Origin: Candidatus Olsenella stercoravium
GTDB lineage: Bacteria > Actinomycetota > Coriobacteriia > Coriobacteriales > Atopobiaceae
Length of the DNA stretch: 39,240 bases
Reading direction: 5' to 3'
NCBI GenBank assembly: GCA_019116265.1
Contig: DXBZ01000043.1
Coordinates: 1-39,240, forward strand
Below the pieces are notes generated by a model that made no database searches, was not told the origin of the DNA, and worked only from the letters and a program-made list of their open reading frames with translations. Made by a program: the position numbers and the translations under genes. Below, one piece after another: positions 138 through 30,683 of this stretch (position 1 is its first letter; each line of letters opens with the position of its first letter).

Positions 138-425
138 ATGCGGGATCAGAAGCACCCCAGGCAGTTCACCGAGGAGTTCAGGAGGCAGATAGTCGCTCTG
201 GTGGACTCCGGCAAGCCCCGCGCCGAGGTGATGCGCGAGTACGACCTCGGCAAGTCGACGCTCGACCGCTGGATCCGCCGCGCGCACGCGTGCGGCTCCA
301 CCGCCGCCGCGGACAACCGGACGCCCGAGCAGAACCGCCTCATCGAGCTGGAGCGGGAGAACGCCCGCCTCAGGATGGAGGTCGATGTCCTAAAACAAGC
401 GGCGCTGATATTCGCACGAAAGTGA
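138..425 (+). CDS. IS3-family transposase OrfA (helix-turn-helix subunit)
   Basis: A 95-residue OrfA. Residues 1-50 form the helix-turn-helix that recognises the terminal repeats (FTEEFRRQIVALVDSGK...EYDLGKSTLDRWIR). Residues 65-95 form the leucine-zipper-like coiled coil (NRLIELERENARLRMEVDVL) typical of IS3 OrfA proteins. The stop TGA overlaps a GTG in the next frame (GTGA, 422-425). OrfB lies in the -1 frame, so the active transposase OrfAB is probably made by -1 slippage on the C-CTA-AAA-C stretch around 389-396, a mechanism known for the family. GAGGAAGGGAGG just upstream supports the start. Confidence 0.9.
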   Translation: MRDQKHPRQFTEEFRRQIVALVDSGKPRAEVMREYDLGKSTLDRWIRRAHACGSTAAADNRTPEQNRLIELERENARLRMEVDVLKQAALIFARK

Positions 426-1267
426 CGGTGATAGCGGCCAACGCCCGCCGCTACCCGGTATCAGCGCAGCGCAGGATCCTGGGCGTGCCCCGCTCCACGT
501 ACTACCGGATGCTCGCGCACCCGCCGCGCCCGAAGGCGCCTGACCCGATCGAGCCCGACGTGCTCGGCGCCTTCGAGGCGTCGCGCGGCGGGTGCGGTGC
601 CTGGAGGCTGAAGGTCGCCCTCGAGAGGGCCGGCATCACCGCCTCCAGGCGCAGGATATGCCGGATCATGAGGGAGAACGGCCTCTCGAGCGCGTACTCT
701 GGCCGCGCACCGAAAGGCGGCGACCGCCCCGTCCAGCCGCCTTCGGCGGAGAACGTCCTGGCAAGGTCCTTCGACGGCCACGCGCCACACACCCACGTCG
801 CGGCCGACCTCACCTACGTGCGCGCCGGCGGCTCGTGGTGCTACGTGTGCCTGCTCGTTGACCTCTACAACCGCGAGATAGTCGGCTGCTCGTGCGGGCG
901 GCGCAAGGACGCGCGGCTGGTCAAGGCCGCCTTCTCGAACGTGGCGTTCCCGCTCACCGCCATCGAGGTCTTCCACAGCGACAGGGGGTCGGAGTTCTGC
1001 AACGGGGAGGTCGACGCGCTGCCCTCGGCCTTCGGAATCGAGAGGTCGGTCTCGCGCCCCGGCAACCCCTACGACAACGCGGTCGTCGAGTCGACGAACA
1101 GGGTGCTCAAGCGCGAGCTGGTGCGCGGGCGGGCGTTCCCGTCGGAGGATCGGCTGAGGACGGAGCTCTTCGACTGGGTGAACTGGTGCAACAACTGCAG
1201 GCTGCACTTGACGCTCGGCTACATGACGCCGGCAGGGTTCAGGGAGGCGGGCCTGATCCTCTCGTAG
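422..1267 (+). CDS. IS3-family transposase OrfB (DDE integrase domain)
   Basis: The catalytic half of the transposase, with an HTH_21-like region followed by an rve integrase core. The DDE triad is intact: Asp in AADLTYVRAG, Asp in VFHSDRGSEF, Glu in YDNAVVESTN. The C-terminal NCRLHLTLGYMTPAGF motif is the usual IS3 ending. The GTG at 422 overlapping the OrfA stop is used as the start. The same frame is open upstream to 290, so a frameshifted OrfAB fusion is equally possible. Both frames are open, so this copy may still be active. Confidence 0.88.
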   Translation: MTVIAANARRYPVSAQRRILGVPRSTYYRMLAHPPRPKAPDPIEPDVLGAFEASRGGCGAWRLKVALERAGITASRRRICRIMRENGLSSAYSGRAPKGGDRPVQPPSAENVLARSFDGHAPHTHVAADLTYVRAGGSWCYVCLLVDLYNREIVGCSCGRRKDARLVKAAFSNVAFPLTAIEVFHSDRGSEFCNGEVDALPSAFGIERSVSRPGNPYDNAVVESTNRVLKRELVRGRAFPSEDRLRTELFDWVNWCNNCRLHLTLGYMTPAGFREAGLILS

Positions 1268-1749: not shown

Positions 1750-3840
1750 CTATTGCTCCTTGAGCTGTTTTCCGTCCTTTGTGCTCCAGGCCTCCTGGCC
1801 ATTGGTCGGTCTCCCGATGATGACGTCTGCTGCCCTCGTAGGCGACTCGAATTCATGGTCCTTCTGGAAGACGCCGTCCACAATCGTGCCATTGGCGATG
1901 AGCTCTTCACGGTCTTCCGCGCTCCAGGGATGATGGGCTTCAAGCGAAGGCACTATGTGACTTGAGATACGCGACCCGGCCTGTACCGTAAATCCGCCGC
2001 TGCTCAGATAGCCTGATGCGTCAGACTCGTTGCCCGTGCAGAAATACAGGACTGTTTCGCTATTGTCGGGTTCAACAACGACTGGCACATCGGGAATATC
2101 AACATGCCAGACTATCGTGGCGTATCCGAGAAGCAAATCAGCGCGTTCAGAGATCAAAACCTCATTCCACACGTCAGAAGCAAGAGGCTCTACCATTGAC
2201 GGCAACCCGCCAGCACAGAGCGTTAGGCCCTTGGTCCTCTTGGTACCTGCCTTCTTAGACTTCCAGGCGGAATCGCTGATGGAGCCATTGAGCTTTTGGG
2301 GAATCACGGCAAGGTTACCGAGGGTGAGCAGCGTCCTGTCGCGCTGCTCCTCAGCCTCTTTGTTTCCGAGGCGACCCCAATGGTTGCGCCACTTCTTGGG
2401 CATGAGGTGCTCAAGGCTGTAGGGCTTGAACCCGAGCATGGTGGTACTTGACCCCTCCGGCCACATTGCCGTCTCGAGCAGGTAGAGGATGCCTCTGGCC
2501 TGTAACGAGGTAAGGCGGTGCTCCTCGTGGAAACTTGCCTTCAAAGCATCGTCGTCGGGATAGGTGGTCGTGACATCTTCCTTCGCGGCCAGTTTACCGA
2601 CAAGCTTGTCGGGCGTGTCGATGTCCTCCCGGATGAGCCCGTTGAAGAACCTGTTGTAGTTCTTCGTCGTCTCGCGGCAGACGATGCGTCGCATGATGAA
2701 GGATTCGAGGATGCCGAGCATCTTGCTAAATGTCTCTTCGTCGTTTGGCATGCAGCTTCTCAGGTAGAGGATGTACGGGATGAGCGTCGAATTCTGCAAA
2801 CCGAAGATGACGACGTTGATCCTGTCGGTTCCGGGCTCCTTGCCCACGACGCTGTCACAGGCGTCGGGATTGAAGGTCGCCTTGAACCACGTGGCGAACG
2901 GCTTTATGGAATCGAGCACGTACTGCTTGCTCCGATAGTGCCTGATCTCGATGAAGTTGCGATACGACTGGAATAGCTTCTCTACCTTTTCGTATGCCTT
3001 CTTGTCGTCGGCGGTGACCTCTATCTCGCTGTCCTCGACGAGGATCTGGAGCAATGAGTCGAAGAAGATGTCGATAAGGGACCTCTTGAAGCGGCCGGTC
3101 GTTATCTCCTGGTCCCAGTAGGCACGCGTCTCTCCATCGGCCTCGAACACGGCCTCCCAGTTTGCCTTGTAGAGGTCGATATCCTCGCTGCTGAAGAAGT
3201 AGTTCTTGAGCAGTTCGGCGGTGGTGAGGCGCACGCCGAGGGAGTTGATGGTGTCGAAGACCTGCTGCTCGTCCTCGCCGTCGTCCACGGTGATCATGAC
3301 GAAGGCCATGAGCTCGGTCATCTCGCTCAGATCCATCAGCTCGGCGGCCTCCTCGTCGATGCTCTCCTTGAAGTAGTTGTATGCACCGATCACGCCGGTC
3401 TCACCTTCGATGTCCTCGAGCTCGGTGAGGGCAAGTATCCTCTCGAAAGCAGGCCTGTCTTTGTGGTTGTGCCGCATCGACGGAGCGACGAAGTCCTTCT
3501 TCTTGTTCTTGGTGATGAAGAAGTTCTCGAAGGTGTCGATGTCATCGTTGAGGATGGCGATGACACGCATCATCACGAGGAGCGTCGTGAGTCGTTGCTG
3601 ACCGTCAACCACTACGAACTTGCCTGCGAAGCCCTCCTCGTTGGCACCCTTGACCGTCGTGTCTTTGAGGATGACTGAGCCGAGGAAGTACTCCTCATCA
3701 CGCTCGCACATCCCCTTGAGGTCTTCGAGGATGCGCTCCCATTCGGTCTTTCCCCATACGTATGCGCGTTGATAGAAAGGAATCTCCAACAGCTTGTTTC
3801 GCGGGAAGATGTCGCCAATTTGCTTCTTGTATGCCTGCAT
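1750..3840 (-). CDS. DUF262-DUF1524-DUF4357 protein (GmrSD/SspE-like nuclease candidate)
   Basis: A 696-residue protein. The N-terminal DUF262 domain carries IPFYQRAYVWG (residues 20-30) and the conserved DGQQRL nucleotide-binding motif (79-84). A DUF1524-type HNH-like nuclease region contains LEHLMPKKWRNHW near residue 475 and GNLAVIPQKLNGSISDSAW about 50 residues later. The last roughly 110 residues (GGFTVQAGSRIS...SPTRAADVIIGR) fit DUF4357, a small domain often added to restriction or methyltransferase proteins. DUF262-DUF1524 proteins such as GmrSD and SspE restrict modified or phage DNA in an NTP-dependent way; the same role here is inference. It is the last gene of a four-gene minus-strand operon, 18 bases after its neighbour. 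Base composition is more AT-rich than the flanking chromosome. Confidence 0.82.
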   Translation of the reverse strand: MQAYKKQIGDIFPRNKLLEIPFYQRAYVWGKTEWERILEDLKGMCERDEEYFLGSVILKDTTVKGANEEGFAGKFVVVDGQQRLTTLLVMMRVIAILNDDIDTFENFFITKNKKKDFVAPSMRHNHKDRPAFERILALTELEDIEGETGVIGAYNYFKESIDEEAAELMDLSEMTELMAFVMITVDDGEDEQQVFDTINSLGVRLTTAELLKNYFFSSEDIDLYKANWEAVFEADGETRAYWDQEITTGRFKRSLIDIFFDSLLQILVEDSEIEVTADDKKAYEKVEKLFQSYRNFIEIRHYRSKQYVLDSIKPFATWFKATFNPDACDSVVGKEPGTDRINVVIFGLQNSTLIPYILYLRSCMPNDEETFSKMLGILESFIMRRIVCRETTKNYNRFFNGLIREDIDTPDKLVGKLAAKEDVTTTYPDDDALKASFHEEHRLTSLQARGILYLLETAMWPEGSSTTMLGFKPYSLEHLMPKKWRNHWGRLGNKEAEEQRDRTLLTLGNLAVIPQKLNGSISDSAWKSKKAGTKRTKGLTLCAGGLPSMVEPLASDVWNEVLISERADLLLGYATIVWHVDIPDVPVVVEPDNSETVLYFCTGNESDASGYLSSGGFTVQAGSRISSHIVPSLEAHHPWSAEDREELIANGTIVDGVFQKDHEFESPTRAADVIIGRPTNGQEAWSTKDGKQLKEQ

Positions 3841-3858
3841 GATGCAATCCTAACCTGT

Positions 3859-4188
3859 TTAGAATGACTCTTCACTTAGAGCGTCAACCGATTCAGCAGC
3901 CTGTTCTTCGTCCTCCACGAACCATGAGGCGTCTATCGAATCGCAAGCCTTCTTAAAGATCGCTTTGACGGTGTCGAAGACATGTTTAGCCTGACCTTGG
4001 AGGCTATCTGCAGGTTGTACAAGCTCGTACTCAGGCTTCTCTTTCAACCCCATAAAGAAGAGCTTGTAGAAATCGTTAGTGCTAAACGTCAAGGTGCCCT
4101 TGCCAATTTCGAAGGCGGTTTCCCCATCACCAACAAGCACGAAGCGGTAACTATCTTGTGTGTCTTCGAAACTAACTTGCCTTTTCAT
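3859..4188 (-). CDS. Small unknown protein of the putative defence operon
   Basis: A 109-residue acidic protein that I do not recognise. It has an N-terminal beta-rich half (RQVSFEDTQDSYRFVLVGDG...GKGTLTFSTNDFYKLFF) and a charged helical C-terminus ending in DEEQAAESVDALSEESF. No membrane segment or signal peptide is seen. Its start overlaps the last 17 bases of the upstream PHP-ATPase gene. Its ribosome-binding site GGAGG (about 4198-4202) is inside that gene, so the two are translationally coupled. The fixed position between the ATPase and the DUF262 protein suggests an accessory or regulatory subunit of the same system. Confidence 0.75.
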   Translation of the reverse strand: MKRQVSFEDTQDSYRFVLVGDGETAFEIGKGTLTFSTNDFYKLFFMGLKEKPEYELVQPADSLQGQAKHVFDTVKAIFKKACDSIDASWFVEDEEQAAESVDALSEESF

Positions 4189-6562
4189 ATCGCTTCATCC
4201 TCCTCTGGATGGTATCAAGTCCGCCCTCGATGTTCTCTGCGACAGTCTCTAGCATGCTGTACTCGTCGCACTCGTATTCGAGGGCGCCACTTCGGATGCA
4301 CAAAGCACCGTCTTTCTTGCCGATGAAGATCACGTTGTCTACGTCGAGGTTTACGATGAACTGGGGGTTGTGCGTTATGAGGATCACCTGGCGCGAGCTG
4401 GCGATGTCACGGAACTCCCTTAGCACCGTCTCTTTGATTGCCTTTTGAGATATCTGATCTTCAGGCTGGTCAACAATATAGATGCCATCGCCAACGCTAC
4501 TGTCTGCCATCAGTGCGAAATACATTTGGGCGTTGTAGCCCTGTGATAGTTCGTTGTAGACGTCGTCGCCCTCGCGAATAATCGACTTCGCAGGTTGCAG
4601 CTTCTCGTCCAGCGCGCTTTCGAATCTGGTTGTGAGCACCGAAAGAGGATCTTCCTCACCATCGGGATAGTTGTTGATTGCATCAATGACGCTCTCGTAA
4701 CTGGACGTGAGGGTATCGAGGCTCTTGTGCTTGCCGATAAGCCCATCGATGAGCGAGGAGAGAAGCTTCGGCGTGATTGCATCAACTCCGAGTTTGCAAA
4801 CGAATTGCAGGTCACCGACAGGATTTGGGTCCACTGTTACGGGCATTGTTTCGAAGTCAAACGAGAAATCCTGCAAGCGGCGCTCGTGCATCACAGCATC
4901 TGCAACCATGCCGCCAATGCGGTCAATGGAATGCTGGTATTCCGCTTGCGACTTATGCGCATCGGTTACGACTTGGTTCTGTGCGGTCTCGAGCTCTGTA
5001 ACAGCCTCTTCAACCTTGTTGGCGACCCTGCCATCAAGGTGAATTCTGCTAACTACTTTTTGGTGTCGCCCGGTGATGCGTACGAGAGCTGCCAGCGCTA
5101 CATCAAAGTCCTTCTTGTCATCATCGGTGAGAACTTCTTCGTGCAGCGTGGCTGCATTAGATAGCTGGATACGAGAGGCTGTGATGTCGTTGATTAGACC
5201 ACTGTGTGGGCTTGAGTCATCCAGCTTTATTCCCTTGTCGAAGGTAACGCTCTCCGGTGCTTCTAATGGACGCTCTGCAGGAATGACGTATTCATAGAGC
5301 GATGCGAGGGCTTCCTGATATTCGCATGATCTCCTTAATGCCTGCAGGTACATATTGAACTGCCCCATGGCATAAAGCTTGTATGGCGCTGGCTCTATGG
5401 GTGCAGGAAAATGCTTGTCGAGTTGCTTTCTTGCTTTGCCAACACTGAGTTTGGCAAAGGTTTCCCTGATGGATTCCTGGCCGTCGAAACAGAGAACGTG
5501 GCCGTCAGGTATTGTTGTCCGAAGCGAGAGCCCCATGGAGGCAAGATACTTTTCCTGGCCTCTTTTAGCCGTTGGCTTCACTCCATCGAAACGATTGAGC
5601 GCATTAAGCAGGGAAGATTTGCCTATCGAATTGTCCCCAATAATTGCATTGATACCAGGCGATAGTGGGATGGTGATGTTTTCGCCACCTAGTGTGAGCT
5701 CAATTCCACCTAGCGCCTTCGTTGAGCCGCTAAAGAAGCTGGGCACAGTCTTAATGCGAGAAATGTCAGTCACCGCCATCGCCAATCCTTTGAAGGTCGG
5801 CAGGCACTTGAGATACGTAGGGGCGTAGTTGCGGTCGGCTTGGTTTGGCTGAGTGTCGTAGTTCGGATAGACGCTCCATACATGGCAGTCAGAACCAGTG
5901 ATGAAGCGAAGCTGCTCTTGTTGATCGTGAGTATAGGCGTAACTTCTGTTGAAGAGCTCGTTCCTTCGGTTCTTGTACTCGTAAGCCTCGAAGTACTCTA
6001 CGAACAGGAACTTGTTGTACAGATCCTCTCCGACACTGTTGGCATCGTTTGTCCTCGTGCGCGCAGAGCCGGGCGAATTCTTTTGATGCGCGATGGCAAC
6101 TATGTCTAGCCCGATATCGCGAATGATGCCCCAATAGGTATCCTCGTTGAAAGCGTTGCCGTCGTCATAATTTGGCTTACCATCCTTAAAGGGTATCGCA
6201 GTGCTTATGCGCTTAACGGCCTCCTCATCTCTGTCATCGAAGATCGTAACGACGTGTATGGGTTTGCTGCCCTCGTTCGTCTTGAAGCTCACTGTGAACT
6301 CTACGCCCGGAAGCACTCTTTGTAGGAACCGAGCATTATCCACCTTGCTGCGCAAAGCACCGTAAATGCTGTAATCGAAGCAATCGTGGTCGGTTATAGC
6401 GACCATATTGACCTCGTACTCTTCAAGCTTCTCGAAGAGAACGCCAATGTTTTCGACCGTTCCATCCTTGACCTTGTGCCCATCCTTATGAGCGGAAGCG
6501 GCAGAGTGGATATGAAAGTCTATCTTGACCGGTCTTTGGACTATTTGACCAGTTGATGCCAT
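4172..6562 (-). CDS. PHP-domain / ABC-type ATPase fusion protein
   Basis: A 796-residue fusion. The N-terminal PHP phosphoesterase shows metal ligands in HIH (residues 17-19), TDHD (57-60), the PGVEF region, DIVAIAH and ITGSDCH. The second part is an SMC/ABC-like ATPase: Walker A IIGDNSIGKSSLL near 310, a helical insert, an ELSQGYNAQ signature near 672, a Walker B region IYIVDQPEDQIS near 690 and an H-loop ILITHNPQF near 730. I recall NCBI naming PHP-ATPases of this build 'TrlF family', but could not check this. PHP domains hydrolyse phosphoesters and are found as nucleases, and ATPases of this kind act as sensors in several anti-phage systems. It starts 14 bases after the methyltransferase and overlaps the next gene by 17 bases. 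Full-length, with every motif present. Confidence 0.85.
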   Translation of the reverse strand: MASTGQIVQRPVKIDFHIHSAASAHKDGHKVKDGTVENIGVLFEKLEEYEVNMVAITDHDCFDYSIYGALRSKVDNARFLQRVLPGVEFTVSFKTNEGSKPIHVVTIFDDRDEEAVKRISTAIPFKDGKPNYDDGNAFNEDTYWGIIRDIGLDIVAIAHQKNSPGSARTRTNDANSVGEDLYNKFLFVEYFEAYEYKNRRNELFNRSYAYTHDQQEQLRFITGSDCHVWSVYPNYDTQPNQADRNYAPTYLKCLPTFKGLAMAVTDISRIKTVPSFFSGSTKALGGIELTLGGENITIPLSPGINAIIGDNSIGKSSLLNALNRFDGVKPTAKRGQEKYLASMGLSLRTTIPDGHVLCFDGQESIRETFAKLSVGKARKQLDKHFPAPIEPAPYKLYAMGQFNMYLQALRRSCEYQEALASLYEYVIPAERPLEAPESVTFDKGIKLDDSSPHSGLINDITASRIQLSNAATLHEEVLTDDDKKDFDVALAALVRITGRHQKVVSRIHLDGRVANKVEEAVTELETAQNQVVTDAHKSQAEYQHSIDRIGGMVADAVMHERRLQDFSFDFETMPVTVDPNPVGDLQFVCKLGVDAITPKLLSSLIDGLIGKHKSLDTLTSSYESVIDAINNYPDGEEDPLSVLTTRFESALDEKLQPAKSIIREGDDVYNELSQGYNAQMYFALMADSSVGDGIYIVDQPEDQISQKAIKETVLREFRDIASSRQVILITHNPQFIVNLDVDNVIFIGKKDGALCIRSGALEYECDEYSMLETVAENIEGGLDTIQRRMKRYEKAS

Positions 6563-6576
6563 AATCGCCTACCAAA

Positions 6577-8025
6577 TTATCTCGTACTGCGTCCCAGGCG
6601 TCTTGCCTGTAGCGTCTGCCATATTCGCCAGCATCCTTCGCACACCTCTTCTTCAAACCCCATACGATCGATGAGCACGGCCCTGTCTACGTAGTCGAGA
6701 GCGGTCTCTATGTTCTTTCCTGAACGTATTACATCGTCCACTCTCTCTATCACATCAGATTTCAAGGTGTCATCAATGGCGAGCTGTGCGGGATCCAGCA
6801 CTCTGATGTTGCCGACCTCCTTGGGCAATATCTCAAGCACTCCACCTCCATAGCTCCTGCCACAAAGCTCGGTGAATGCAAATGCGATGCTGTTATAATA
6901 TGCGATGATTGCCAATTCTGGGTCGACGCCGCCTTCGAATTTCATTCTGTGCATCGTGTCCGTCGAAATAGCGTTGCATCGGTTGAGCACAAACTTCGGA
7001 TAGAGGTTGTTCCTTCTAAGGAAGAAGGCGTCGGGTATCCAAATAGAAGGGACGGCATACCAATTATCGCGAATAGAGCACTTGTAGCCCTTGCCCTCCC
7101 CGCGCTCTTCGCCCTCATCGATATAGGCCTGCTGCGCCTTTGTCATCTTTTCGTATTGGCCGTCTTCGAGTACGAGCAACCTGGCTCTTTTGCCTTGGCT
7201 TCGGTTTCGTTCCCAGTCGTCGTTTGTGAAGAATACGCCTGACGCATGAGAACTTCTGCCGATGAGAGGAAGTGTGAAATCGTCTAACTCATACGTCGCT
7301 GATGTCTCATCGGTCAAAGAGAAGAATGAATTGTTGCCAGTTGTCACACCGACGTTGATTAGGGCAATGTCAGAAAACGGCACAAGCCGGTCATCCTTGT
7401 AGAGATTATTAAGTACCCTCGCGTCGCATGCATTTATGAAGTATCTCGTCCATTTCTCATCGAAAGATACGAAAGGTTGAAATTCGATTTCATCGAAGGA
7501 ACACCCCACAAGGTCTTCCACACTATCTGTCTCAATAACGCGGATGGAGCTTTGGCCAGCCCCCTTCTTGCCGATGAAAACGACGATTTCCTGTTCGATA
7601 TCGCTAAACACGAGCTTCGAGAATGCAAGTAGGGTGATGTTACTGTAGTGGCGTGCCAGGAACCTCCGCAGGTCTTCTGCATAGACGACTTGAAGAATCT
7701 CGGCTGGGATTACGAATGAGAGCGTCCCTCCCTCAGCAAGAAGGTCGGTGCATGCAACCATGAAGCCAACCCATGCGTTCACAAGCTTATTCGCTCTCAT
7801 TCCCTGCCGGTTCAGTATGTCCGCGAGCAGCGTGCGTTGCTCGGGCTCAAGGTATTGATAGCGAATGTAGGGCGGATTGCCGACGATGAGGTCATAACTA
7901 CCAGGCTTTGCCTCCTCGTAGAACTCAAAGAAGTCACGATGGTGGTAGTTCACGGTTGCTTTGCCGCATTGAATTCTCTGAGCGTTAAGCAAGGCTTCTT
8001 CATCTATCTCGATCGCATCCACCAA
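6577..8025 (-). pseudogene. N6-adenine DNA methyltransferase, 5' end missing
   Basis: The remaining frame of 482 codons begins at VDAIEIDEEAL, which is methyltransferase motif II (the acidic SAM-ribose loop). It goes on to motif IV NPPY (residues 50-53), which marks amino-methyltransferases of the Eco57I/N6-adenine type. The C-terminal half is a target-recognition region (LPLIGRSSHASGVFF..., GRSYGGGVLEILPKEVGNI). The N-terminal part with SAM-binding motif I is absent. Immediately upstream lies the end of an IS3-type element, and only a TTG at 8025 is available as a start. Enzymatic activity is therefore unlikely. It heads the operon that includes the PHP-ATPase, so this break probably also removed the native promoter. 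Confidence 0.82.
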
Positions 8026-8053
8026 TGAATCTACCCCGATTCCGTTTACACCC

Positions 8054-8230
8054 CTACGCCGCCTTCAGGCGGCGATCGTCCTCGGGCCGGTTGGCCCGCT
8101 CGAACTCCTCGGGGCTGAGGTATCCCAGCGCCGAGTGGGTCCTTGCCCTGTTGTAGAAGCACTCGATGTAGTCGAATATCTCCAATGCCGCCTGATCCCG
8201 CGTCTCGAACGTGCGGGCGTGCACGCACCC
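8054..8230 (-). pseudogene. IS3-family OrfB remnant (C-terminal 58 codons)
   Basis: The minus-strand frame reads ETRDQAALEIFDYIECFYNR followed by ARTHSALGYLSPEEFERA, the unmistakable C-terminus of an IS3-family OrfB. It is unrelated in detail to the two other IS3 copies here. The remainder is missing because the second IS element begins at about 8231. Downstream of its stop, GTGTAAACGGAATCGGGG resembles a terminal repeat of this subgroup, so the remnant element probably reaches about 8027 and is what truncated the methyltransferase gene. Confidence 0.8.
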
Positions 8231-8285
8231 TGGATTGGCTACACTAGGTTGGACAGTTTCACGAGGGCCTACGGAAGGAGGCTCG

Positions 8286-8573
8286 ATGGCCGATCCAAAG
8301 CACCCGAGGCATTTCACCGACGATTTCAAGAGGCAGGTTGCGTCGCTCTACAACGCAGGGAAGCCGCCAAGCGAAATCATGCGCGAGTACGATCTCGGGA
8401 GCACGACGCTGCGAAGGTGGATCGACTCCATCAACGCCACCGGCTCGCCGCGCGCCGCCGACGACAGGACCCCCGAGCAGAACAGGATCATCGAGCTGGA
8501 GCGCGAGAACAAGAGGCTCCGCATGGAGGTCGACGTCCTAAAACAAGCGGCGCTGATATTCGCACGAAAGTGA
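8286..8573 (+). CDS. IS3-family transposase OrfA, copy 2
   Basis: A 95-residue OrfA closely similar to the one at 138. The helix-turn-helix (FTDDFKRQVASLYNAGK...EYDLGSTTLRRWI) is followed by the coiled coil (NRIIELERENKRLRMEVDVL). GGAGG five bases before the ATG fixes the start. It ends at a TGA overlapping the GTG of OrfB, with the same C-CTA-AAA-C frameshift stretch as copy 1. Confidence 0.88.
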   Translation: MADPKHPRHFTDDFKRQVASLYNAGKPPSEIMREYDLGSTTLRRWIDSINATGSPRAADDRTPEQNRIIELERENKRLRMEVDVLKQAALIFARK

Positions 8574-9427
8574 CGGTGATAGCGGCCAACGCCGACCGCT
8601 ACCCGGTATCGGCGCGGTGCGAGATCCTCGGCGTGCCGCGCTCGACCTGCTGCTACCTCCGCTCGCGCCCGGGGCCCCCGCCCGCGCCGGACCCCGTCGA
8701 GCCCGACGTTCTCGCCGTCCACGCGGAGAGCAAGGGCAGGTACGGCGCGAGGAAGGTCAGGGCGTCGCTCGAGCGGCGCGGCGTCGTCGCGATCCGCAGG
8801 CGGATATCCCGCATCATGAGGGAGAACGGCCTCTCGAGCGCGTACGGGAGGAAGCGCTTCAAGGCGCACCCGGGCAAGCAGAACGGGGCGGAGCTGCCGA
8901 ACGTGCTCGACCGGTCCTTCGACGGGTGCGCTCCGCGCACGCACGTCTGCAGCGACCTCGCCTACGTGCGCGCCGGCGGCTCCCGGCGCCACGTCTGCCT
9001 GCTCGTCGACCTCTACAACAGGGAGATCGTCGGCCACTCGGCGGGAAGCAGCAAGGGGGCGAAGCTCGTCAAGGCGGCCTTCGCGACCCTGGAGTTCCCG
9101 ATCTCGGACATCGAGGTCTTCCACACCGACCGTGGCAGCGAGTTCGACAACGCCGAGATCGACCTCATGCTTGAGACGTTCGGCGTCGAGCGGTCGCTCT
9201 CCGCCAAGGGCTGCCCCTACGACAACGCGGCCGACGGGTCGACGAACAAGATACTCAAGGCGGAGCTGGTCTACAGGGACAGCTTCTCCGACCTCCGCGA
9301 CCTGCAGGCCAAGCTGTCCGACTACGTGCACCGGTGCAACAACATCAGGATCCACTCGACGCTCGGCTACATGAGCCCCGTCGAGTTCAGGAAGGCGGGG
9401 CTGATCCTGTCGAAACCGTCCAAATAA
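8570..9427 (+). CDS. IS3-family OrfB, copy 2, catalytic Glu replaced by Gly
   Basis: An open OrfB of normal length with the first two catalytic aspartates (CSDLAYVRAG and VFHTDRGSEF). The third catalytic position, Glu in copy 1 (DNAVVESTN), is Gly here: DNAADGSTN, codon GGG at 9236-9238. A single GAG to GGG change would explain it. The DDE triad is broken, so this transposase should be inactive on its own although the frame is undisrupted. The C-terminal NIRIHSTLGYMSPVEF motif is intact. Confidence 0.85.
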   Translation: MTVIAANADRYPVSARCEILGVPRSTCCYLRSRPGPPPAPDPVEPDVLAVHAESKGRYGARKVRASLERRGVVAIRRRISRIMRENGLSSAYGRKRFKAHPGKQNGAELPNVLDRSFDGCAPRTHVCSDLAYVRAGGSRRHVCLLVDLYNREIVGHSAGSSKGAKLVKAAFATLEFPISDIEVFHTDRGSEFDNAEIDLMLETFGVERSLSAKGCPYDNAADGSTNKILKAELVYRDSFSDLRDLQAKLSDYVHRCNNIRIHSTLGYMSPVEFRKAGLILSKPSK

Positions 9428-9441
9428 GTGTTGCCAATCCA

Positions 9442-9462
9442 GAGCCTGTCGTTGAAGTTCAT
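9442..9462 (-). pseudogene. First codons of a gene cut by IS copy 2
   Basis: On the minus strand an ATG at 9462 is preceded by AAAGGA about six bases upstream. It encodes MNFNDRLW before entering the right end of the IS. The strong ribosome-binding site suggests a real gene start. The rest of the gene is not found on the far side of the element, where an IS remnant lies. Function unknown. Confidence 0.3.
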
Positions 9463-9701
9463 GGTCGTTCCTTTCGGTCGGTTCTGCAGTCCACACCGCG
9501 TGGGTGCAAGACCATGGAACCGCGCGACGGGCTCTGGCGCCACCGACGACGGTTGGCAATTTGTCAACCAAGGGAGGCATCGATGGGTTTCCAACTGCCC
9601 CATTATCCCATGAGCGTGGCTGGGGTCGCTATTCACCCGGCGCAACCGCAACAGCTTTTGTCATGGTGGCATCTGTTATCAAATGGCTACAATACATAGC
9701 A
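9463..9701. other. Gap without a recognisable gene
   Basis: About 240 bases between the IS-truncated gene start and the antitoxin. I see no frame with a ribosome-binding site and no tRNA cloverleaf. The last 50 bases turn AT-rich and probably hold the antitoxin promoter; a TACAAT at 9688-9693 is a possible -10. Confidence 0.4.
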
Positions 9702-9715
9702 AATATCAACATATT
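9702..9715. promoter_or_regulatory. Palindrome upstream of the antitoxin
   Basis: AATAT-CAAC-ATATT lies 13 bases before the antitoxin start, next to its ribosome-binding site. RelB/DinJ-type antitoxins usually repress their own operon through short palindromes in this position, so this is a candidate operator. Confidence 0.4.
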
Positions 9716-9728
9716 GTTGGAGGTAACT

Positions 9729-9974
9729 ATGAGTTCACAGCTTGCGACGCGCGTGGAAGACGCTGAGGCGGAGCGCTTCCGCGAGACGACACGGCTTCTG
9801 GGCACCACGCCGGCAGATGCGATGCGCATCTTTGTGTCCGCCTTCAATGCTCATCGCGGATTTCCGTTTGAGGTGCGCTTGCCCGAGCCCAAGGTCGAGG
9901 CCTTCGCAACCGAGCGGGAGGCGGCAGACTTTTCCGACAGGCTTGCCCTGAGGATGATGAGCGATGCGCGGTGA
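9729..9974 (+). CDS. RelB/DinJ-family antitoxin
   Basis: An 81-residue protein with the N-terminal ribbon-helix-helix pattern of RelB/DinJ antitoxins (VEDAEAERFRETTRLLGTTPADAMRIFVSAFN) and a C-terminal toxin-binding tail (FPFEVRLPEPKVEAFA...ADFSDRL). TTGGAGG six to seven bases before the ATG supports the start. It overlaps the following MazF-like frame by 11 bases, the usual coupled antitoxin-toxin layout. Because the toxin is truncated, this is now probably an orphan antitoxin. Confidence 0.82.
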   Translation: MSSQLATRVEDAEAERFRETTRLLGTTPADAMRIFVSAFNAHRGFPFEVRLPEPKVEAFATEREAADFSDRLALRMMSDAR

Positions 9975-10089
9975 GATTTGGACGATGCGCGATGATCTTT
10001 ACGCAAGCAAGGCACGGCTGGTCGTCATCGTGCAGAGCGACAGCATGAGCGGGTTCGACTCCGTTGCATCTCATAAGCTGTCGTCGTGA
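9964..10089 (+). pseudogene. MazF/PemK-like toxin, truncated after about 35 codons
   Basis: MRGEIWTMRDDLYASKARLV followed by VIVQSD and FDSV is the N-terminal beta-barrel start of MazF/PemK endoribonucleases, including the conserved GEIW and the arginine before VVIVQSD. After FDSV the frame switches to unrelated sequence and stops at 41 codons; family members are about 110. A deletion has removed the RNA-cutting core, so the toxin should be dead. Confidence 0.75.
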
Positions 10090-10108
10090 CGTATAGAGAT
10101 GGTGTCCC

Positions 10109-10492
10109 ATGGATTTCCAGAGCATAGACGCCCGGCTGATCTCGCGCCCCAGTGCCACCAAGGCCTTCCACGAGAAGTGGGGTTGGATGGTCTACTGGGT
10201 GGGCGGTAGGCAGTTCGCTTGCGAGTTCACGGCCTCCGCTGACGCCAAGGCACCCTACGCGGGACGTCACCTGCTGTCGCTCAAGTGCGACCCCGACCGC
10301 ATCCTCGAGCTGCGCGCTGAGTACCCGGGCGCGGTGCTGCCCGGCTACTACTCCGACGGGCGCATGTGGATCTCCGTCGACCTGGATGCCGATCTGCCCG
10401 AGGGCCTCGTGCTCGACCCGTGCGACATGAGCTACGACCTCGTTTTCTCCAAGTTGCCCAAGCGCGTTCAGTGGGAGGTTTCTGACGTGTAG
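10109..10492 (+). CDS. MmcQ/YjbR-family protein
   Basis: A 127-residue protein matching the YjbR (CyaY-like fold) family. Visible features are a central WMVYWVGGRQFACEF strand pair, LLSLKCDPDRILELRAEYPG, the aromatic PGYYSDGRMWISVDLD segment and the closing SYDLVFSKLPK helix. The family is described as DNA-binding (MmcQ/YjbR); its physiological role is unclear. Length is normal and the gene looks intact although both neighbours are broken. Confidence 0.85.
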   Translation: MDFQSIDARLISRPSATKAFHEKWGWMVYWVGGRQFACEFTASADAKAPYAGRHLLSLKCDPDRILELRAEYPGAVLPGYYSDGRMWISVDLDADLPEGLVLDPCDMSYDLVFSKLPKRVQWEVSDV

Positions 10493-10559
10493 CGGCACGG
10501 CCTGCGCTGGCGACGGGGCGGTTGCCTGCAATGGGCGAGAGGAGCCCGTGCGAGAGGCA

Positions 10560-10919
10560 CCCCGATGAATTGGCTTTCGTTCGTAGGAACGGGGACACAC
10601 GTCACCTGATGCCGTTCCAGCTCAATGCAGAAATCCAAGGCCATTGCATCCAGTTTGCGTGTAATGGCATTTCTCACCATCGTATAGGGGACGTCTGATT
10701 TGCTGTTCAGCGCGCCAACTGGAAATCTGCATCCAAACGAGATCGCCGACTTGCACGCTGGAAACACATCGAGGGGATGATAGCCCTTCGACGCGTTGGC
10801 AAACCTATCCATATTCGCGATGCCGCACAAATCTGCGCCGAGCGCAGACAAGATTTCCTTTACCCGTTTGCTGTCTATCGTACTGTTGCTCCGTAACCGC
10901 CACCTTGTCTTTGCCTGTT
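10560..10919 (-). pseudogene. Epoxyqueuosine reductase-like protein, N-terminal fragment
   Basis: The minus-strand frame reads VKEILSALGADLCGIANMDRF, HPLDVFPACKSAISFGCRFP, VPYTMVRNAITRKLDAMAL and CVPVPTNES. This is the N-terminal region of the 4Fe-4S, QueG-like reductase family. The alignable part ends near 10560 and the ferredoxin-like Cys clusters that should follow are absent, so only about 120 of 250 or more residues remain. The likely original start near SKRVKEIL now reads ATA in place of ATG, with GGAG at the right distance; the ATG at 10919 lies in a 5' extension. This is a decayed gene. Confidence 0.65.
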
Positions 10920-27178: not shown

Positions 27179-27298
27179 GCGGCGCTCCCTGTCGGCGGCG
27201 TGCGTTGCCAAGGCTACTTATCCCCAAAAGTCACGTCTCCCACGCGGTTCGGCTATGCTAGGTGGCTCTTGCACGCAACCGTTTGGAGCCACAGACAC

Positions 27299-29455
27299 AT
27301 GGACCTTATCGCCACGCTCGCAAGTGAGCTCAACCTCAGGCCAGAAGCCGTCGAAGCCGCAGTCAAGCTCATCGACGAGGGGAACACCATCCCCTTCATC
27401 GCGCGCTACCGCAAGGAGGCCACGGGCGGCATGGACGACGTCGCCCTGCGCGCCCTCGACGAGCGCCTCGCCTACCTGCGCAACCTCGAGAAGCGCAAGG
27501 AGGACGTCCTTGTCCTCATCAACGCGCAGGGCAAGCTCACGCCCGAGCTCGAGGCGGAGATCCGCGCGGCCACGCAGCTCCAGCGCGTGGAGGACCTCTA
27601 CAAGCCCTACCGCAAGAAGCGCATGACGCGGGCGCAGAAGGCGCGCGAGGCCGGTCTGGAGCCGCTGGCAAACATGATCTTTATGCAGGTGGCCGCCAAG
27701 GGGTCCGCGCTCGACGAGGCGGCGCGCTTTGTGACGCCGGAGGCCGCCGAGGCCGGCTTTGACACGCCGGAGAAGGCGCTTGCCGGTGCGGCGGACATTG
27801 TGGCGGAGGTCGTGGCGGAGGACGCCGAGAACGTCGCCGACCTGCGCGCGTTCACCGAGGCCACGGCGGACGTCGTCTCCGCGGCAGTGAACGCAGACGA
27901 GAAGACCCCCTACGAGCCGTATTACGACTACGCCGAGCCTGCGGCCAAGATCCCCAACCACCGCGTGCTGGCCATCGATCGCGGCGAGCGCGAGGAGAAG
28001 CTCCGCGTGCGCGTGCGCGTGGACGAGGCGGCCGCGATCGCCCGCCTCGGCGCGCGCTGGCCGCGCCGGCAGGGCGTCTTTGCCCCGGTCTTTGAGGCGG
28101 CCGTCGCGGACGGCTACAGGCGCCTGATGGCGCCCTCGCTCGAGCGCGAGGTCCGCGCCAAGCTCACCGTGCGCGCCCAGACGGACGCCATCAAGGTCTT
28201 TGCCAAGAACCTCGAGAGCCTGCTCTCGGCCCGCCCGGTGCGCGGTGCCCGCATCATCTCGCTCGACCCGGGCTACCGCACCGGCTGCAAGGTGGCGGTG
28301 CTGGACGAGACGGGCAAGCTGCTCGACCACGGCGTAGTCTATCCCACCAAGCCGCGCCACGATGTCGCGGGCACCAAGCGCGAGCTCAGGCGCCTGGCCG
28401 AGAAGTACGCGATCAACACCATCGTCATCGGCAACGGTACGGCCAGCCGCGAGACCGAGGAGGTCGTCTCCGAGTTCATCGCCGAGTCCGCGCCGGAGCT
28501 GCGCTACACGATCGTCAACGAGGCGGGTGCCTCGGTCTACTCGGCCTCCGAGCTCGCGAGCCAGGAGTACCCGGACCTCGACGTCACCACGCGCGGCGCC
28601 ATGAGCCTGGGGCGGCGCCTGCAGGACCCGCTCGCCGAGCTCGTGAAGATTCCGCCCCAGTCCATCGGCGTGGGCCAGTACCAGCACGACCTCGACCAGG
28701 CTGAGCTTGCGCGCACGCTGGGCTACGTGGTGGAGGACGTGGTCAACCGCGTGGGCGTGGACGTGAACACCGCCAGCGCAAGCCTTCTGGGCTACGTCTC
28801 CGGCATCACGGCCGCCGTGGCCAGAAACATCGTGGCCTACCGAGAGGAGCACGGCGCCTTCACCGACCGCCGCGAGCTCAAGAAGGTCCCCCAGCTCGGT
28901 CCCAAGGCGTTCCAGAATGCGGCGGGCTTCCTGCGCATCACCGGCGGCAAGAATCCGCTCGACGCCACCGCCGTGCACCCGGAGAGCTATGACGTGGCGA
29001 CGGCGCTGCTCGAGCGCGCGGGTGTGGGCGCGGATGAGCTCACGCGCGGCGGCGTGCCCGACATCGAGAGCCGCGTGGGCAGCGTGGGCGCGCTCGCGAC
29101 CGAGCTGGGCTGCGGCGCGCTCACGCTGATCGACATCGTGGCCGAGCTCAAGAAGCCGGGACGCGACCCGCGTGACGACGCCCCGGAGCCCGTCTTCAGC
29201 TGCGCCGCGCTCTCGATTGACGATCTCCAGCCCGGCATGGAGCTCACGGGTACCGTGCGCAACGTCGTGGACTTTGGCGCCTTCGTGGACGTGGGCGTCC
29301 ACCAGGACGGCCTCGTGCACATCTCCAAGCTGGCCCGGCGCTTTGTCAAGCATCCGAGCGACGTCGTGGCGGTGGGGGATACGGTGAAGGTCTGGGTCGA
29401 GCGCGTGGACCGCGACCGCGGCAAGATCTCGCTTACCATGGTGCAGGGCAAGTAG
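27299..29455 (+). CDS. tex: Transcription accessory protein Tex
   Basis: A 718-residue RNA-binding protein of normal family length. The N-terminal Tex helical region (EAAVKLIDEGNTIPFIARYR...YLRNLEKRK) is followed by the YqgF/RNase H-like domain (RIISLDPGYRTGCKVAVLDE). Next come the helix-hairpin-helix segment (VDVNTASASLLGYVSGITAA, ELKKVPQLGPKAFQNAAGFL) and a C-terminal S1 domain (GTVRNVVDFGAFVDVGVHQD). The longer frame upstream of 27299 is an artefact crossing two minus-strand genes. Highly conserved housekeeping gene with strong high-GC codon bias. Confidence 0.95.
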   Translation: MDLIATLASELNLRPEAVEAAVKLIDEGNTIPFIARYRKEATGGMDDVALRALDERLAYLRNLEKRKEDVLVLINAQGKLTPELEAEIRAATQLQRVEDLYKPYRKKRMTRAQKAREAGLEPLANMIFMQVAAKGSALDEAARFVTPEAAEAGFDTPEKALAGAADIVAEVVAEDAENVADLRAFTEATADVVSAAVNADEKTPYEPYYDYAEPAAKIPNHRVLAIDRGEREEKLRVRVRVDEAAAIARLGARWPRRQGVFAPVFEAAVADGYRRLMAPSLEREVRAKLTVRAQTDAIKVFAKNLESLLSARPVRGARIISLDPGYRTGCKVAVLDETGKLLDHGVVYPTKPRHDVAGTKRELRRLAEKYAINTIVIGNGTASRETEEVVSEFIAESAPELRYTIVNEAGASVYSASELASQEYPDLDVTTRGAMSLGRRLQDPLAELVKIPPQSIGVGQYQHDLDQAELARTLGYVVEDVVNRVGVDVNTASASLLGYVSGITAAVARNIVAYREEHGAFTDRRELKKVPQLGPKAFQNAAGFLRITGGKNPLDATAVHPESYDVATALLERAGVGADELTRGGVPDIESRVGSVGALATELGCGALTLIDIVAELKKPGRDPRDDAPEPVFSCAALSIDDLQPGMELTGTVRNVVDFGAFVDVGVHQDGLVHISKLARRFVKHPSDVVAVGDTVKVWVERVDRDRGKISLTMVQGK

Positions 29456-29476
29456 GCGGCGGCGCGAGGAGATAAG

Positions 29477-29974
29477 ATGAGGCCTATGAGGCGCGCAAAT
29501 CGCCAGATCACCGATCCCGCAGAGGTCCGTGCGCTCATCGAGCGGTGCCATACCGTGAGGGTCGGTGCGGTTGACGAGGACGGGGTGTTTGTCGTCCCCC
29601 TGAACTTTGGGTATGAGTGGGTTGGCGGGCGTCTCGTTCTCTATCTGCACTCCGCCAGCGAGGGGCGCAAGGCTGAGGCCTTCTCGCGTGGGCCGAGGGT
29701 CGCGATCGAGATGGACGTCGAGCTGGGCGTGATCACGGGGGGCTACGCGTGCGCCTACTCGTTTTCCTATCAGAGCATCATGGGATCCGGGCTCATATCG
29801 CCCGTGGCCAACGTGGATGAGAAGAGGCGCGCGCTTGAACTGATCATGCGCCACATGGCACCCGATGCCCCGCGCGATTCCTCTGGCAAGTTTTCGTTCT
29901 CGGATGAGGCAGTGGAGCGCGTTGCGATCTTCCGGATTGATGTCAACGAGCTCGCGGCAAAGCAGCGGCTTTAA
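29477..29974 (+). CDS. Pyridoxamine 5'-phosphate oxidase-like flavoprotein (NimA-type)
   Basis: A 165-residue split-barrel protein. It has RQITDPAEVRALIERCHTVR, then VVPLNFGYEW, LVLYLHSASEGRKAEAFSRG and VAIEMDVE, the pattern of NimA/PNPOx-like FMN proteins, many of which are nitro-reductases or heme-related enzymes. AGGAG six bases before the ATG supports the start. It follows tex by 21 bases and precedes the B3/B4 gene by 13, so the three may be co-transcribed. Substrate not predictable. Confidence 0.85.
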   Translation: MRPMRRANRQITDPAEVRALIERCHTVRVGAVDEDGVFVVPLNFGYEWVGGRLVLYLHSASEGRKAEAFSRGPRVAIEMDVELGVITGGYACAYSFSYQSIMGSGLISPVANVDEKRRALELIMRHMAPDAPRDSSGKFSFSDEAVERVAIFRIDVNELAAKQRL

Positions 29975-29987
29975 TGGGGCGGGCGCG

Positions 29988-30683
29988 ATGTTCTTCTCGA
30001 TAGACGACGAGGTGTTTGGGAGGCTGCCGGTGCTCTGCGTGGGCGTGGTGCTCGCGGAGGGCGTCGACGGCACGGGGGAGCACCCTGCGGTGGACGCGCT
30101 GCTCGACAAGGCGGTCCGCGACGCCGAGCGCCGCCTCGAGGGCGCCCACGCCAGCGAGGACCCGCGCGTCCAGCCCTACCGCGAGGCATTCCACGAGCTG
30201 GGCATGAGCCCCAGCCGCTATCCCTCCTCGAACATCGCCCTGCTCAGGCGCATCGCCAAGGGCAAGGGTCTCTGGCGCGTGAACCCGGTCGTGGACCTGG
30301 GCAACGCCATCTCCATCAAGTACGGCCTGCCGCTCGGCGCCCATGCGCTGGGTGAGGAGGACGTGCTCGAGCTGCGCTTCTCTCGTCCGGGCGACGTCTT
30401 TGTGGCGCTGGGAGAGGCGGAACCGGACGCCACGCTCGCGCCCGGGGAGCTCGTCTACGCGGTGGGCAGCCTCGTGCACACGCGCCGCTGGACCTGGCGC
30501 CAGAGCGAGAACGGCAAGGTGGAGCCCTCGACGACGCGCATCGCGTTTCCGATTGACGGCTTCACGGGCGTCAACGAGACCGAGGTCAGGGCTGCGTGTG
30601 AGGAGCTCGCGGCGATGCTGCGGGATGAGTTTGGCGCGCGGGCCGAGGTTCTTCTCGCCAGTGCGGGCGCGCCGAGGGCGTAG
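29988..30683 (+). CDS. B3/B4 tRNA-binding domain protein
   Basis: A 231-residue stand-alone copy of the B3/B4 domain found in the beta subunit of phenylalanyl-tRNA synthetase. Signatures are YREAFHELGMSPSRYPSSNI, LWRVNPVVDLGNAISIKYGL and GAHALGEEDVLELRF. Free-standing members are proposed to act in trans-editing of mischarged tRNA; the role here is inference. It starts 13 bases after the flavoprotein gene and ends 3 bases before the convergent YoaK-like gene. Confidence 0.85.
   Translation: MFFSIDDEVFGRLPVLCVGVVLAEGVDGTGEHPAVDALLDKAVRDAERRLEGAHASEDPRVQPYREAFHELGMSPSRYPSSNIALLRRIAKGKGLWRVNPVVDLGNAISIKYGLPLGAHALGEEDVLELRFSRPGDVFVALGEAEPDATLAPGELVYAVGSLVHTRRWTWRQSENGKVEPSTTRIAFPIDGFTGVNETEVRAACEELAAMLRDEFGARAEVLLASAGAPRA

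Follow-up and report, generated by a model that had tools for sequence, protein, structure and literature searches.

We report that a stretch of 39,240 nucleotides (the window), contig DXBZ01000043.1 of Candidatus Olsenella stercoravium (GCA_019116265.1), carries on its minus strand a unit of two genes: a PHP-type phosphoesterase joined in one chain to an SMC/RecN-like ATPase (the PHP-ATPase; 4172-6562 in window numbering, which is used for all window features) and a small acidic partner (3859-4188). From sequence and genomic context we infer a defence role for the pair, an inhibitory polarity for the partner, a trigger and a substrate. The pair, at 6562-3859, would be an antivirus or genome-integrity cassette in which the PHP-ATPase is an effector restrained by its partner, released upon DNA damage or exposure of single-stranded DNA (ssDNA), and backing restriction systems; we give this reading an even chance of being right. 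PHP-ATPase fusions as such are already known (TrlF, Ppl). Beyond the original prediction, which described the fusion protein, the analysis identifies its known fusion type, the overlapping partner gene and a mobile tie to restriction systems.

The PHP-ATPase is encoded by an intact open reading frame (ORF) of 796 amino acids, with its ATG at 6560-6562 and its stop codon at 4172-4174, and the plus-strand reading of the same stretch is stop-rich throughout. The PHP domain occupies approximately residues 12-270 (5753-6529, minus strand) and is followed by an ABC/SMC-type head with a coiled-coil insertion at approximately residues 390-560. Every motif named in the original prediction was found in the translation. 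In the PHP part these are HIH (H17, H19), TDHD (D58, H59), AIAH (H159) and GSDCH (D225, H227), joined by GVEF (E88) and H103; they make up the ligand set of the PHP superfamily (HxH, D/H, E, H, H, DxH), whose fold is present as well. In the head they are Walker A (GDNSIGKS, residues 309-316; 5615-5638), the ABC signature (LSQG, residues 672-675; 4538-4549), Walker B (IYIVDQPED with D698; 4457-4483), all on the minus strand, and the H-loop (H731), and these along with the head fold place the protein among ABC/SMC-type ATPases. The catalytic Walker B glutamate is absent, its position being naturally occupied by glutamine (Q699).

The AlphaFold2 model, built on a 48-row alignment, has a mean predicted local distance difference test score (pLDDT) of 88.3. 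Foldseek searches against the PDB place the PHP part closest to RNase AM (7ug9, TMt 0.59; 9etk) and the ATPase part among the heads of SMC, RecN, Wadjet JetC, retron PtuA and AriA. Structure prediction had been proposed as a check on the N-terminal metal site, and the model returns a PHP fold, which speaks to the fold level and not to metal geometry. In profile searches the best solved-structure relative of the ATPase is AriA of the PARIS system (1e-8); the Pfam matches are the ATPase families AAA_21 (2e-8), AAA_15 and AAA_23, and the PHP part weakly matches 3',5'-nucleoside bisphosphate phosphatase and RNase RNM. The nearest NCBIfam family is TrlF (E 4e-42), followed more weakly by Spaf_1101 and Ppl, all far under the curated cut-offs. 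ORF, motifs and folds thus bear out the proposed pairing of a PHP hydrolase with a damage-sensing-style ABC ATPase in a single polypeptide: the protein is a true fusion of a metal-dependent phosphoesterase and an SMC/RecN-like ATPase, far past what chance would produce.

A scan of genome contigs against an 8-sequence alignment yielded 66 loci, mostly from Lachnospiraceae and other Clostridia, Coriobacteriia and Bacilli; the plasmid and phage collections returned distant matches only, at approximately 15% query coverage. In 48 aligned relatives, H17, H19, D58, H59, E88, H103, D225 and H227 of the PHP domain and G309, G314, K315, G675, D698, Q699, E701, D702 and H731 of the ATPase are invariant, with DQPED in 48 of 48, an identity that is partly ascertainment as the scan behind most of these relatives used TDH- and DQPED-type patterns. 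DQPED persists in relatives found pattern-free, by profile or protein search, and is also present in a side clade without GSDCH (L023, L113-L116) and in the TrlF homologue of Klebsiella. The Walker B position flagged in the original prediction is accordingly a consistent feature of these proteins. H159, present in the window copy, is retained in 39 of the 48 relatives and is C, S or Y in the other nine (L052, L053, L055, L056, L061, L075, L084, L086 and L089), where the remaining ligands are intact. Side-clade members L023, L113, L114 and L115 retain HxH and TDH, lack GSDCH and still have a small overlapping partner; judging by these motifs, their PHP domain is possibly altered catalytically.

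The partner gene (3859-4188, minus strand; 109 amino acids) overlaps the end of the PHP-ATPase gene by 17 nucleotides. A small overlapping ORF follows all full-length relatives with readable downstream sequence, at 53 loci from genomes and viral contigs, and also accompanies each of the 22 Coriobacteriia matches, side clade included. The overlap is mostly 14-29 nucleotides, and the partners are about 100 amino acids long and nearly all acidic. The partner of the window and that of Adlercreutzia are 59% identical, and profile comparison (hhalign) links the partner of the window clade to those of the S24 clade described below (99%), clade B (95%) and clade C (96%). In L035 an intact ATPase stands beside a shortened partner, possibly as a result of a frameshift. 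No match to the partner was obtained in Pfam (above cut-off), NCBIfam or PADLOC. Its AlphaFold2 model (pLDDT 80.4) is confident across the first ~85 residues, and a fold assignment by Foldseek was rejected, nothing in the PDB being significant (best E 0.11, with a weak RNase-H-like topology only).

Two kinds of partner variant point towards DNA damage. Eight loci encode a longer partner, of 213-249 amino acids, with an additional S24 peptidase domain (PF00717, 7e-20) that matches LexA and UmuD in NCBIfam as well as LexA crystal structures; none of the eight deviates at the CAG cleavage site, at the serine of SGxSM or at the lysine of CK. The N-terminal part of these proteins matches the plain partner (hhalign 99%), and the fusion has a single origin on the ATPase tree, within the window's own clade. 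No SOS boxes (GAACN4GTTC) were found upstream of the cassettes. The second variant ends in an acidic stretch followed by xPF, in forms such as DEDIPF, EEDIPF, DEELPF, DADVPF and SECPF. This occurs in 9 of 53 partners, related loci that represent perhaps four lineages and not nine events, versus 1 of 525 other ORFs in the same loci. The tips come from the other large clade and from L092, a distant relative on a viral contig, and they resemble the single-stranded DNA-binding proteins (SSBs) of the carrying hosts, whose C-termini read YDEDIPF or FDQDIPF. The role of the SSB tip as a docking peptide is well documented (PMC5872125). The sole tip-bearing ORF other than a partner encodes an Abi_C-domain protein of 272 amino acids near another cassette copy (L049, 4748-5566, minus strand; ending in PPAYDDDIPF), on its sequence probably another defence gene using SSB mimicry. 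Separately, three of the nine loci with a substituted H159 also have an SSB-like partner tip.

In the mechanism that we propose, the PHP domain would be the catalytic part, acting as a metal-dependent nuclease or phosphoesterase of nucleotides with RNase AM as its closest likeness, and the SMC/RecN/AriA-like head would serve as sensor or gate. By analogy with RNase AM the substrate may be RNA or small nucleotides, and DNA is also possible. The Walker B E-to-Q replacement would be expected to slow hydrolysis and give a long-lived ATP-bound dimer, with E701, likewise invariant, as the likely stand-in base and obvious candidate. The partner would hold the effector in check and couple it to DNA damage: in the S24 clade, the LexA/UmuD-like domain would cleave itself on RecA filaments, and SSB-tipped partners may respond to ssDNA covered by SSB or draw in proteins that bind SSB. 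We favour an inhibitor since S24 self-cleavage ends repression in LexA and in phage repressors. In UmuD, cleavage can also activate, and the partner may instead be an activator or co-sensor, with S24 cleavage of the UmuD-to-UmuD' kind or SSB-tip docking loading the PHP-ATPase onto damaged DNA and switching on its activity. The S24 part does match UmuD, a protein with an SSB tip is expected to bind SSB-interacting proteins, so that recruitment would come naturally, and the intact ATPase beside a truncated partner in L035 suits an activator. The strict pairing in overlapping operons and the strong acidity, however, suit an inhibitor equally well or better; we put the activator at perhaps one chance in four.

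The cassette has moved between restriction systems. Loci L026 and L028 have a DNA identity of 87% that is confined to 7992-10620, exactly from the start of the ATPase gene to the stop of the partner gene, and upstream lie an Eco57I-type restriction-modification (R-M) pair in L026 and a type I hsdMSR operon in L028. The same cassette borders behind unrelated R-M genes imply that the pair moves as a cassette. Similarly, L033/L039, L029/L035 and L036/L057 share essentially just the two-gene stretch. In some two dozen loci, around half of those with a readable neighbour, the gene directly upstream belongs to an R-M or BREX system; among these genes are HsdR (L028, L038, L030), BrxL of BREX (L033, L036, L091), DpnII (L029, L069-L071), Eco47II (L058), Mrr (L037), TdeIII (L080), type III Res (L065) and Eco57I-type methyltransferases (L026, L027, L062, L067). 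Several other loci either lack a neighbour on the same strand or have one whose type is unknown or unrelated. Direct linkage of this sort is also seen for prrC, which sits in a type I R-M locus (PMC2610378), and would fit a guard in which the neighbouring restriction enzyme keeps the PHP-ATPase inactive until a phage anti-restriction protein triggers firing. Yet near-identical cassettes follow the unrelated Eco57I-type and type I enzymes and other copies follow BREX, DpnII or type III genes, which makes a specific contact with each of them unlikely. Moreover, many copies are not next to any R-M gene, the methyltransferase in the window is broken, and a PHP domain stands where PrrC has an anticodon nuclease; we consider such a guard improbable.

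We likewise attach little probability to a DNA-repair enzyme (RecN/SbcCD-like end processing) clustered with restriction genes merely through shared defence islands, for which the RecN/Rad50/SMC-type head speaks and with which the SOS-like S24 domain and the SSB tip are compatible, in view of the patchy distribution (22 of 400 Coriobacteriia genomes), the exact cassette borders inside R-M operons and a transfer between families. The last is suggested by the closest relative, from Adlercreutzia caecimuris, which is 71% identical over its full length, when relatives from the window's own family, shared with an Olsenella genome, are just 25-37% identical.

The restrained, damage-released effector would then act as a transferable reserve for R-M and BREX systems, called upon once restriction has failed or has left breaks behind. 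Several observations weigh against it. Roughly half of the loci have no obvious R-M gene directly upstream, and the truncated partner of L035 sits badly with a strict inhibitor, barring an error of assembly. The trigger of the window copy is extrapolated from relatives, its own partner ending in SEESF with no S24 domain and no clear SSB tip. Finally, the PADLOC matches are weak and local, and the database searches given above found no family for the partner. A more specific proposal, which we hold tentatively at about one chance in three, is that the partner is a swappable damage input, acting in one clade by RecA-triggered, LexA-like self-cleavage and elsewhere by mimicry of the host SSB tip, on one E-to-Q-locked nuclease-ATPase plugged into types I, II and III R-M and BREX.

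At the sequence level the PHP-ATPase is related to TrlF and Ppl, but distantly and below the thresholds of both. TrlF (NF045780) likewise has PHP and an ABC-type ATPase in one chain; the window protein scores 145 bits against a cut-off of 350, and a true TrlF scores 533. The Klebsiella homologue shares the Walker B DQPED with the window protein and, unlike it, has no overlapping small partner. In the trlRFG (TRL) locus of Photorhabdus, TrlF is accompanied by the small gene trlR and an AlbA_2/HATPase gene, trlG (PMC7554251), whereas the small gene in the window is downstream and overlapping and trlG is absent. Ppl (NF042955; PADLOC Ppl), named as anti-phage, also combines PHP with an SMC-like ATPase; here the match is 44.8 bits against a cut-off of 1000 and is local to the C-terminus of the ATPase. 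AriA of PARIS is a relative of the ATPase by sequence and fold, but the PARIS effector is a separate TOPRIM protein (AriB) in place of a fused PHP domain, and no AriB is found among the neighbours in the window (methyltransferase, small partner, GmrSD). Of the AriA entries in the PDB, 8v46 reads DQPE, and 8v45 and 8ux9 read DEPE; 8v46 thus appears to be an engineered E-to-Q mutant, whose apparent engineered glutamine is the natural residue of the PHP-ATPases. PrrC and RloC similarly couple an ABC ATPase to a nuclease effector and are tied to R-M (PrrC) or DNA breaks (RloC), but their effector is an anticodon nuclease and not PHP, and the linkage here is to many R-M types. The eight S24-fused partners have the domain, Ser-Lys dyad and Ala-Gly site in common with LexA and UmuD, but carry the partner domain at the N-terminus and not a DNA-binding helix-turn-helix. 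Defences triggered by ssDNA-binding proteins or DNA damage are known in AbpAB, Retron-Eco8 and Hachiman (PMC10732053), which are of the same proposed trigger type and consist of unrelated proteins. Neither the libraries nor the open literature yielded a two-gene cassette of this kind, its portability among R-M systems or partners with an S24 domain or SSB-like tip, subscription papers having been largely outside reach, so that prior mention is possible.

Upstream of the cassette in the window lies a gene for an M.Eco57I-like DNA methyltransferase (6577-8025, minus strand; Pfam M_Eco57I_C, 4e-33), 53-55% identical to the cassette-adjacent one of Butyrivibrio L026. Its alignment begins at residue 92 of the homologue, approximately 91 N-terminal residues being lost, and the window contains no counterpart of the R subunit of L026. 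At the break lie an IS3-family transposase C-terminal fragment (8054-8229, minus strand; by ORFs) and a complete IS3-family insertion sequence (8230-9442, plus strand) recognized by 31-nucleotide terminal inverted repeats, HTH_Tnp_1 and its ORFs. A remnant of a second IS3-family element was located by DNA comparison on the far side of the operon (290-1267, plus strand); 124-1294 and 8273-9439 are 75% identical in the same orientation, and the two copies flank the defence operon 1750-8025 in a composite-element-like manner. Downstream, 19 nucleotides from the partner gene, begins an intact GmrSD-type (DUF262/DUF1524) restriction gene with a C-terminal DUF4357 (1750-3840, minus strand; Pfam GmrSD_N 4e-34, GmrSD_C 3e-13, DUF4357 2e-14). 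The same three-domain architecture stands upstream of an S24-type cassette in L042. The idea that the whole of 1750-8025 is one fixed system was dropped, because GmrSD lies near the cassette in just this one other analysed locus and the upstream R-M genes also differ between near-identical cassettes. Elsewhere, the window holds a 963-amino-acid open frame with no Pfam match (27221-30109, minus strand), a putative gene only, and a probable secreted surface protein with an InlB B-repeat-like domain that runs off the contig end (37457-39238, plus strand); no tRNA or Rfam elements were detected within it.

In conclusion, the window encodes a PHP-ATPase together with an overlapping partner gene that accompanies it between unrelated restriction systems. 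The literature searched offers no mechanism for PHP-ATPases of the Ppl/TrlF type, and the LexA-like and SSB-tipped partners open the trigger of these systems to direct testing. The invariant DQPED also shows, in nature, the E-to-Q change that serves to trap ABC ATPases. If our reading is true, this mobile cassette would couple failure of R-M or the occurrence of DNA breaks to a backup response.
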